Source: Anabaena sp. UHCC 0204
GTDB lineage: Bacteria; Cyanobacteriota; Cyanobacteriia; Cyanobacteriales; Nostocaceae
DNA length: 64,000 nucleotides
Reading direction: 5' to 3'
Assembly (NCBI RefSeq): GCF_009711975.1
Contig: NZ_VIKW01000013.1
Span: forward strand, 50,980-114,979
Positions 3,621-6,196 of the stretch are shown piece after piece (the stretch's first letter is position 1; the number at the start of each line of letters is the position of its first letter). The position numbers and the translations under genes were made by a program. The notes beneath the pieces are model-generated. The model was not told the DNA's origin, did no database searches, and saw nothing but the letters and a program-made list of their open reading frames with translations.

Positions 3621-3749
3621 AAATTCACAATTCAAAATGAAGGTTAATAACTTCAAACAAAAGTTCTCTTTTCCCTTAATTCCGGTGATTATTCCTACTG
3701 ATTCATGCCTAATGTATACGAGAAGCGATTACTAAAGGCGGTTTTTAGT

Positions 3750-3782
3750 AAGTGTATTAGTGATCTAGTCACCAATACACTT
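3750..3782. other. Strong stem-loop (terminator or small-RNA candidate)
   Basis: The arms AAGTGTATTAGTGA and TCACCAATACACTT pair over 14 positions with one mismatch around a TCTAG loop. No T-run follows on the plus strand, so it is not a simple intrinsic terminator in that direction. It sits 130 bases past the methyltransferase stop and about 340 bases past the end of the patX-like gene on the opposite strand. Confidence 0.5.
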
Positions 3783-3840
3783 ACAGTTTGAATAATTACC
3801 GGATGTTTTGATGAAATACTGAACAATTTTCGAGAGATGA

Positions 3841-4019
3841 AGTGCTGTAACTGTTTATGTTTGTGGCAGAGAAATTGAAATACTGATAGCTTGCGTGGTG
3901 ACGCAATAGCCATAGGACTGAGCAGAGATATAGTGCTGTAACTATCTATATCTAGTGTCAGCGAAAGAAAACTTTTGAACGATGAATCAAACAAGTGTAG
4001 TGCTGTAACTGTCTATGTC
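3841..4019. repeat. Three spaced 20-21-bp direct repeats
   Basis: Copies of AGTGCTGTAACTGTCTATGT (20 or 21 bases, up to three mismatches) start at 3841, 3932 and 3999, spaced 91 and 67 bases apart. The intervening sequences are not alike apart from a small hairpin (TTGCGTGGTGACGCAA) between the first two. The unequal spacing and copy number do not fit CRISPR. They lie directly downstream of the patX-like gene. Possible roles are tandem small RNA units or protein-binding iterons; the sequence alone does not decide. Confidence 0.55.
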
Positions 4020-4118
4020 GTCTCAATTCAAGAAGTGGTATCTAGGATCTGAAATATCCAATAATCCGGTAATATCATTTTTGGCTTGGTAGGAATGATC
4101 CTCCAAAGTTTAAATAAC

Positions 4119-4346
4119 TTAAACCGCATTACCAAGATATCCATCCAAACCTCTACGACCACTACCTCGATGAGGATTGGGCTTTTCTGGTTGATTAGGG
4201 CTAGGTTTCGGGTTATCAGCGAGTAGTTGCTGGGAATCAGACTTAGCCATCAACAGCAGGGAAAAACGAGTCTGTACTGCTTCGCAGTTAAAAGCTAAGG
4301 AGCCAAATACCAGACTCGATACTAAAAGTGAAATGGCAGCACGCAT
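4119..4346 (-). CDS. patX: PatX-like heterocyst patterning peptide precursor
   Basis: A 75-residue precursor. Residues 1-24 look like a Sec signal peptide (MRAAISLLVSSLVFGSLAF then CEAVQ). A proline-rich linker (NPKPSPNQPEKPNP) follows, then HRGSGRR at residues 59-65, ten residues before the end. RGSGR is the pentapeptide of PatS and HetN that inhibits the differentiation regulator HetR. The architecture of signal peptide, short linker and His-preceded RG(S/T)GR near the C-terminus is that described for PatX in filamentous cyanobacteria. The gene follows the FAD oxidoreductase on the same strand but has its own TCCGGA element upstream, typical of HetR-dependent (DIF+) promoters. The mature signal would be released by processing and act from cell to cell. 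No experimental support is available here. Confidence 0.82.
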   Translation of the reverse strand: MRAAISLLVSSLVFGSLAFNCEAVQTRFSLLLMAKSDSQQLLADNPKPSPNQPEKPNPHRGSGRRGLDGYLGNAV

Positions 4347-4403
4347 AGTAGATGTCTATTTTAGAACTCTCTACTTCACTAATACTTAACTTTGATATGT
4401 CTG

Positions 4404-4409
4404 TCCGGA
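4404..4409 (-). promoter_or_regulatory. TCCGGA, DIF+-type -35 element of the patX-like gene
   Basis: TCCGGA lies 58 bases upstream of the patX-like ATG. An AT-rich segment including TAAGTAT follows about 15 bases downstream on the minus strand and may serve as the -10 region, although it is not a perfect TANNNT. In Anabaena, TCCGGA marks promoters induced early in differentiating cells in a HetR-dependent way. Its position and the nature of the downstream gene support the call. The hexamer is short and palindromic, so chance occurrence is possible. Confidence 0.6.
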
Positions 4410-4447
4410 AAATTTGCGAAAAAGTATTGTATTTTACTGAATAAAAG

Positions 4448-6196
4448 TTAATTTGATACTTCTTCAAGATGCTCAACAAGTAACCAATTTCCAGACAGAT
4501 TTGGCCGCCCCCAAATTTTGAGCATTGTTTCTGGGGGAAAAGCTTGTAGTGCTTCATCTATATGCGATCGCAACGTTACAAGCTGCCAATTTGTCTTAGT
4601 TAAATTGGTGTTTTCTATAATATTAAATTGGTAGTTTTGCTGATCCAGCCGTTGAAATTTGCCAATAAAGTAGTTAAGGTTTAATTTATTATCTTCCTCA
4701 ACCAAAATACCAGGACAATAACCACTAGTTGGATAAGCTTCTGGGTGGTCTAAATAATAAGTTTGCCAGTGCAACCAATCGGGATGATTAGTTAATAAGT
4801 TAAACAGAGGAACAATTGCCGTGGGTGCATAGTCATCTGTTAGTAATGCAGCCTGCAAAGTCTTTACAGGCAAATCCCTGGGCTGACATTCTAACACAAC
4901 ACAAAGAGAAGCTGCCATACCTGCGGCTTGACCAATTCCCATGACTACAGGTTGAAGTCTGGTAGCCCCATTCGCAATGTGGGAAACGGAAATGTTTTTC
5001 TCACAGACTAGCAAACCATCTGTAGTGGCAGGAATCAACGAGCGATAAGGGATAGTGAAGGGCGTTCCTGTCCATCTTCCACCCCAACGGATAGATTTTG
5101 GTTGCAGTGAAAACTCAACACCAGGATAATGGTGATCATTGGCATAGTTTCCGACAGCTACTGCATCATGAAATGGTGATGCTGTGTTACTGTTTGCTGA
5201 AAGCAAGATATCCTGTTCAAAAACAGTTTTCAAACCTACTAGGCGGCGACTTTCCCGATAATAGGGATGGAGGGCAAAAGCGGTATTAGCATGAGGAAAA
5301 AGGTTTTCTGCTAATCCATAACGCCTACCAAACTGAGTTTGAATGTAATGGGCAAAGTTCTGACTGTGCCAACAACATTCTTGCACAAATTCGCGCTTTT
5401 TCACCCCTGATTCTACCAACCGATTGGCATTTTGGCAGTAATCGTTGCCCGCTATAGGCCAGTTAATCATAAATCTATCTGCTGGCAAGCGCCCATAGTT
5501 CAAAAATTTTTCTGTCCCATAGTTATCCCAAGCTCCTGTAAACTGGGATGGATTGTAGTTGGGGGCTGGGGGAATGGCTGCGGCGATATTTTCCCCATAA
5601 TCTTGCATTACTACTACCCATGTTGGTGCTTGCACTGGATATGTTTGGGTAAGGGCATTAAACTGTGCTGGGGCGCTGGGTTCTCCCCATTCTGACTGTA
5701 ATTCCCAGCCCCAACGATAAGGTACTTCCCCTAAAGCTAATAAGTCTCCTAATTCTGTGCCATCAAGAATTATTTTGGCGTTAACTGTGAAATCTGCAAA
5801 GCGTACACCTGTGATACAGTCTTGTGTTCGTAAAACCTCTAAAGGTACTTTTCCCGAAATCCATTGGAGATTAGGCAATTCTCTCACCCAATCAGCAAAT
5901 ATTTCTGCGCCTATACGCGGATCATAACTGAAAAAGCTCACCCAACTATGATCTAATCCTCCTGGTTGTCTACGTTGCAATTCCTGTAAAAAAGCACCCC
6001 ATAACCCGGTTTGAAAAGCTTGTAATTCGTTTCCGTCTGGTACTGATACGCCGGCAGAGGTTAACATTCCTCCTAGCCAGGTAAATTCACTCACAAGGAC
6101 GGTTTTTACCCCCCTTCGCGCTGCTTGGATAGCCGCAGCAGTTCCGCCAGTGCCTCCACCGACAACTAAGACATCGGTTGTGTAGATTTGATTCAT
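4448..6196 (-). CDS. FAD-dependent oxidoreductase
   Basis: A 582-residue protein starting with the dinucleotide-binding fold TTDVLVVGGGTGGTAAAIQA (GGGTGG with the following helix), then ARRGVKTVLVSE, which ends the first beta-alpha-beta unit. A second FAD contact region is likely around ANGATRLQPVVMGIGQAAG (GIGQAAG), the C-terminal FAD-binding signature of the FAD_oxidored family. There is no signal peptide or membrane helix. Substrate unknown; relatives are annotated only as FAD-dependent oxidoreductases. It lies upstream of the patX-like gene on the same strand with a gap of about 100 bases. Read-through is possible but a separate patX promoter is visible. Confidence 0.8.
   Translation of the reverse strand: MNQIYTTDVLVVGGGTGGTAAAIQAARRGVKTVLVSEFTWLGGMLTSAGVSVPDGNELQAFQTGLWGAFLQELQRRQPGGLDHSWVSFFSYDPRIGAEIFADWVRELPNLQWISGKVPLEVLRTQDCITGVRFADFTVNAKIILDGTELGDLLALGEVPYRWGWELQSEWGEPSAPAQFNALTQTYPVQAPTWVVVMQDYGENIAAAIPPAPNYNPSQFTGAWDNYGTEKFLNYGRLPADRFMINWPIAGNDYCQNANRLVESGVKKREFVQECCWHSQNFAHYIQTQFGRRYGLAENLFPHANTAFALHPYYRESRRLVGLKTVFEQDILLSANSNTASPFHDAVAVGNYANDHHYPGVEFSLQPKSIRWGGRWTGTPFTIPYRSLIPATTDGLLVCEKNISVSHIANGATRLQPVVMGIGQAAGMAASLCVVLECQPRDLPVKTLQAALLTDDYAPTAIVPLFNLLTNHPDWLHWQTYYLDHPEAYPTSGYCPGILVEEDNKLNLNYFIGKFQRLDQQNYQFNIIENTNLTKTNWQLVTLRSHIDEALQAFPPETMLKIWGRPNLSGNWLLVEHLEEVSN

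Follow-up and report, generated by a model that had tools for sequence, protein, structure and literature searches.

A patX gene and a conserved repeat behind it in Anabaena sp. UHCC 0204

PatX has been described as the RG(S/T)GR protein whose link to HetR is older than heterocysts (PMC7761841), and the family (Elhai and Khudyakov 2018, as given by citing papers) corresponds to NCBIfam NF047413. In Nostoc PCC 7120, export of PatX has been demonstrated, and the protein is processed by PatP to HRGTGR, the active hexapeptide, which binds HetR (PMC12756182). PatS, likewise an RGSGR inhibitor of HetR, is a 17-aa product (PMC12756182) with the motif at its C-terminus (PMC7761841). Both patS and patX have a DIF1 motif centred at −35, and the motif also lies upstream of hetR in PCC 7120 (PMC7377430). 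Near another heterocyst regulator, upstream of hetF, Nostoc PCC 7120 carries the tandem small-RNA array NsiR1, direct repeats of about 60 nt with an individual DIF1 promoter for each copy (PMC9045159). The mechanism considered below follows published work on Nostoc/Anabaena PCC 7120 (PMC12756182, PMC7377430, PMC7761841).

We analysed a stretch of 64,000 nucleotides (hereafter the window; C4:50980-114979 in a 5.74-Mb assembly of 83 contigs, 99.99% complete by the tool's figure). A first-pass annotation made from the letters had proposed that it holds a PatX-like gene behind a TCCGGA promoter. The gene and its upstream surroundings are composed as follows.

4119..4346, minus strand: patX coding sequence for a 75-aa precursor (NF047413, 97.7 bits, cut-off 30)
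4287..4346, minus strand: codons 1-20, hydrophobic N-terminus resembling an export signal (hydropathy), with synonymous-site conservation
4155..4172, minus strand: HRGSGR hexapeptide, residues 59-64 of 75 (read from the sequence; compare the active HRGTGR of PCC 7120)
4347..4403, minus strand: 57-base leader of nearly constant length, highly conserved from −42 to −1
4382..4388, minus strand: TAAGTAT, probable −10 region (AGTA is kept across patX leaders)
4404..4409, minus strand: DIF1/DIF+ motif TCCGGA, assigned to −35 by sequence and position (first base at −63)
4424..4437, minus strand: NtcA-box-like GTAAAATACAATAC (GTAN8TAC) near −91, a motif found in 91 of 122 patX loci
4448..6196, minus strand: FAD-dependent oxidoreductase, the conserved upstream neighbour (PF12831, 340 bits)

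The intact frame of 75 residues with an ATG start was there as proposed, and so was the peptide motif, with PHRGSGRR followed by ten residues (GLDGYLGNAV). Thus, RGSGR is preceded by His near the C-terminus and followed by 11 residues. A Pro-rich linker is present, and hydropathy gives a hydrophobic run near the N-terminus, a candidate export signal. Pfam had no family for the frame at E <= 1. The PatX equivalog model NF047413, in contrast, matched residues 1-65 of the submitted stretch over profile positions 2-68 of 69, well over its curated cut-off. Homology outside the pentapeptide, whose absence had been named beforehand as a ground for giving up the PatX reading, was hence found, and it runs through the protein. 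The gene is as small as had been said, but the remark that it is easily missed in annotation no longer holds; annotation of patX need not fail, because NCBI now curates a model for this small protein. The profile search of the whole assembly gave this single match, and the closest named relatives are from Cuspidothrix, Anabaena and Dolichospermum. In length class, hydrophobic start, linker, H-RG(S/T)GR motif, DIF1 promoter and a hetR in the genome the locus resembles the known family; the PCC 7120 gene, presumably asl2332, differs in having RGTGR where the window gene has RGSGR, and the C-terminal tail GLDGYLGNAV is a further point of difference. The interpretation as PatX is supported, and we consider it very probable that the window gene is patX and, by analogy, encodes an exported precursor of a HetR-inhibiting hexapeptide.

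RGSGR is common to PatX, PatS and HetN, and patS shares the DIF1 promoter, so that a PatS- or HetN-type inhibitor was weighed in place of PatX. PatS, however, is a very short peptide ending in its motif, and HetN is larger and carries its motif internally, whereas the window encodes a 75-aa precursor of exported type with 11 residues behind RGSGR and an equivalog match to PatX. We give this assignment practically no weight.

Could the frame, its RGSGR and the TCCGGA have come together by chance? Raw counts are compatible with this, since the window holds eight TCCGGA against 7.16 expected from shuffles, and a loose RGSGR pattern had 64 matches in the genome, below the 93 of its reversed control. 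The chance reading is refuted, and we reject it as next to impossible, by the profile match along the protein, by orthologues that adjoin the same FAD gene, and by the fixed place of the motif. The FAD neighbour, noted in the first-pass annotation, proved to be conserved as well: it lies directly upstream of patX in 73 of 74 named loci, collected with PatX peptide patterns, and the one exception is a patX at a contig end. TCCGGA begins at −63 in 115 of 122 patX loci, at −60, −62 or −66 in six, and is replaced by TCCGGG in one. These loci lack independence, since close relatives are numerous among them and some genomes are represented twice. Two further loci, L129 and L133, were left out for want of a usable frame, L129 being cut by a contig end. 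The motif exceeds chance because of its fixed position, not its count.

In the window, 57 bases separate TCCGGA from the ATG, which agrees with the element claimed upstream of the gene, and sequence and position place the motif at −35 of a putative DIF1 promoter. HRGSGR or HRGTGR occurs in 117 of the 122 loci, whose frames were chosen partly by the RG motif. Further upstream, GTAN8TAC, which we take to be the NtcA-box consensus, stands at −89 to −92 in 91 of the loci. The other 31 lack it, although most of them have a block around its place that can be recognised by eye. The DIF1 motif appears to be kept much more stably at patX than at hetR. Around hetR, no exact TCCGGA was seen within 600 bases in L003 (upstream, 8953 onward), and the same was true of 15 of 16 other hetR loci checked.

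Conservation of the start of patX extends into the codons. Among 87 distinct sequences, mean majority frequency was 0.917 for −42 to −1, 0.921 for codons 1-20 and 0.757 for codons 21-30. In locus pairs with <85% identity of the FAD gene, synonymous identity of patX codons 2-20 was 0.810, whereas the best of 508 19-codon windows of the FAD gene in the same pairs reached 0.765 (median 0.589); the rest of patX resembled the FAD gene (0.564-0.639 against 0.547-0.630). Besides the protein, the DNA or RNA of leader and first codons is likely under constraint. Five stretches of leader and start yielded no convincing common RNA fold: their consensus energies were −0.8 to −2.3, within about 1 SD of column-shuffled controls in four stretches and about 2.3 lower in the one from −26 to +90.

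If the PCC 7120 scheme applies here, the TCCGGA promoter would be switched on in differentiating cells after nitrogen step-down, with an activity that would depend on HetZ and, as reported, on NtcA and HetR. The precursor would be exported via its N-terminus and cleaved outside the cytosol by the peptidase PatP, and HRGSGR (HRGTGR in PCC 7120) would then bind HetR, block its DNA binding and hold cells back from differentiating. Of these steps, passage of the peptide from cell to cell is the least certain. When only patX was lost in PCC 7120, no phenotype was visible without nitrogen, and the authors argue that PatX has no part in cell-to-cell signalling such as PatS and HetN have (PMC7761841). 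In Leptolyngbya BL0902, PatX effects are reported to be basically independent of HetR (PMC11298460).

Other sources of RGSGR were sought in the genome. No DERGSGR-stop pattern was present, and the two matches to an ERGSGR pattern did not encode RGSGR. From the 64 loose matches, 43 were viewed in context (the first 30, and 13 others through 11 regions) and the other 21 were dismissed on the basis of their codons. On translation, 16 RG(S/T)GR frames were left with patX included, and the 15 besides patX did not, by eye, resemble an exported precursor or HetN. As we recognised neither a PatS-type ending nor another convincing carrier of the motif, PatX is probably the main source of RGSGR in the genome. 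Nearest in their letters are a 64-codon frame (L222) that contains HRGTGR but by eye no hydrophobic start, and a second frame of 17 codons, MNTKKEGRGSGRLQHTP (L226), with no TCCGGA in the region fetched.

The first-pass annotation had stated that the window contains no hetR and had proposed looking for hetR and nif genes in the genome. The window indeed lacks hetR, yet the gene lies 2.0 kb before its first base, at C4:48052-48951, on the patX strand and 6146 bp beyond the patX stop; it encodes 299 aa and was identified by HetR_C (1.2e-42). A genome without hetR, named beforehand as another ground for giving up the PatX reading, is thereby excluded. On C24, nifH was found in two pieces that lie 7.1 kb from each other and cover model positions 1-146 (251 bits) and 137-274 (209 bits). 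The split of the gene keeps both below the cut-off of 394, and the first piece ends with a stop. A NifU-like frame, named by eye, lies beside the first piece. The insertion of about 7.1 kb in nifH, outside the window (L189, G000:C24:17500-27500), holds a 475-aa recombinase-like and a 1033-aa restriction-methylation-like frame, both named by eye.

An interrupted nifH would also fit a strain that has a true patX but lost heterocysts and kept the gene for another role of HetR, for example in necridia or filament breakage; PatX and hetR are reported in filamentous species without heterocysts (PMC12756182, PMC11298460). However, the recombinase-like frame inside the insertion resembles what is found in elements excised in heterocysts, and a survey counts 19 nifH elements of similar general kind in heterocyst formers (PMC4874684). 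Moreover, PatX matched in 16 of 16 genomes examined of the genus. Loss of heterocysts is thus a very improbable explanation, and because nifH is split by an insertion resembling an excision element, the strain is probably a heterocyst former.

Among relatives, PatX matched in 210 of 217 genomes of the family (209 over the cut-off) and in 94 of 243 genomes drawn from the order. Six of the seven family genomes without a match have hetR, and the seventh is 72% complete. At the sensitivity of the model, the distributions of PatX and hetR almost coincide in these sequences, though not strictly. The six hetR-positive genomes negative with the PatX model are G002, G003, G033, G034, G035 and G182; five of them have a strong homologue of the FAD gene, and no RG[STGA]GR frame was present in the FAD and hetR loci examined in PatX-negative genomes. 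The PatX variants at L043, L044 and L048 are 95-101 aa long; they contain YRGSGR and, beyond it, another basic motif of RGG type, which may reflect duplication of the peptide region.

A patX mapped with its promoter, neighbours and hetR is a useful but expected annotation in a relative of bloom-forming Dolichospermum/Anabaena. Less expected is the conserved repeat behind the gene. In the window it consists of three degenerate copies of a direct repeat of about 26 nt, with the following elements in and around it.

4064..4073, minus strand: left arm ATTACCGGAT, which precedes the array and is complementary to the right arm
3996..4013, minus strand: core of copy 1, GACAGTTACAGCACTACA (repeat search, profile, strict core, conservation)
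3929..3946, minus strand: core of copy 2, GATAGTTACAGCACTATA (repeat search, profile; less conserved in relatives)
3838..3855, minus strand: core of copy 3, AACAGTTACAGCACTTCA (repeat search, profile, conservation)
3795..3804, minus strand: right arm ATCCGGTAAT, which follows the array and is complementary to the left arm
3748..3784, unstranded: inverted repeat with 16-nt arms (94% complementary), possible terminator common to patX and a convergent methyltransferase

A profile of the array matched 76 of 123 regions downstream of patX, in every case on the strand of the gene; the 14 loci whose units made the profile match by construction, and the 123 are the 122 loci with the window added, although it is already among them as L001. 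Two to five copies occur in Anabaena, Trichormus, Cylindrospermum, Sphaerospermopsis, Dolichospermum and others, with a spacing of about 64 nt in regular multi-copy arrays and a core of the form AGACAGTTA[A/C]AGCACTWCA. Many Nostoc have one weaker copy (E about 4e-6 to 9e-3), and related sequence is visible in some of the 47 regions without a profile match. A strict core, AGACAGTTAMAGCACTWCA, was matched exactly 48 times in the 217 genomes, in 30 of them. Every one of these matches lies 135-303 nt after a PatX match and on its strand, and the reversed control of the core had none in the 217 genomes. Within 13 aligned loci of the closest group, copy 1 ranked 1st, copy 3 15th and copy 2 92nd in conservation among 381 windows of 19 nt. 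Judged from these sequences, the array is genuinely conserved and goes with patX.

Other identities for the array were tried. A dispersed repeat was rejected on the grounds that, by exact matches, the strict core is confined to patX in the family; a looser pattern with up to two mismatches gave nine matches in the strain's own genome, three exact at patX and six mismatched elsewhere, against five for its reversed control. A part of the convergent methyltransferase is disfavoured, because the array is present at loci without a methyltransferase match (L067, L073, L077, L078, L079, L083 and L084). As for known RNAs, no Rfam match at gathering score lay beside patX in L084, L087, L110 and L013, and near the window patX there were two matches only, far below that score. 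NsiR1 is alike in its direct repeats of about 60 nt beside a heterocyst regulator, but that regulator is hetF, and the patX array has no DIF1 promoter for each repeat: TCCGGA is absent between 835 and 4403 of the window, and hence from the array.

The inverted repeat at 3748..3784 can form a stem of 15 pairs, was absent from the output of a terminator scan and has similar stems in only some relatives. The arms are complementary and bracket the array in several lineages. Across 30 loci, which are related to one another, the best arm pairing reached about p 0.05 or better against simple shuffles in 18 and not in 12, and cognate arms paired hardly better than swapped ones (21.5 against 20.8). In the aligned arms, 237 of 278 cells pair, and 24 of 2000 permutations did as well. 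The arms of L057 and L030 differ in sequence yet are complementary, with the left side at another place; the permutation test did not credit them as compensated changes. No CCGG arm was present at the Cylindrospermum arrays L083 and L084. Support for a conserved long-range helix around the array is modest. Base pairing between array and patX start had no support in 42 loci (mean duplex −33.4 against −32.5 for shuffled partners). The repeat unit was assessed for folding in 96 distinct units from 49 loci: none of 77 multi-copy units showed a fold, and 19 single-copy units folded more weakly than the control.

We tentatively propose, at somewhat less than even confidence, that patX of the Anabaena/Dolichospermum/Cylindrospermum/Nostoc group carries an undescribed 3′ cis element that may act on the transcript or as a small RNA and set the amount of inhibitor. 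The array would, as an example of dosage control, offer several binding sites to a protein or RNA. The literature searched contained no description of the 3′ repeats or of the GTAN8TAC block, which is weak evidence of absence, Elhai and Khudyakov 2018 lying outside its scope. If functional, the repeat would add a layer of control over inhibitor amount that is possibly missing in the model strain: the model strain may not show it because the element was undetected in three loci sampled of the HRGTGR type, that of PCC 7120 (L040-L042). The strict core was likewise found in 0 of 13 genomes of the genus of these loci (g53). In Cylindrospermum sp. FACHB-282, a HEARO RNA (RF02033, 126.7 bits) lies upstream of the FAD-patX pair, at 7505-7757 of L084 on the minus strand.
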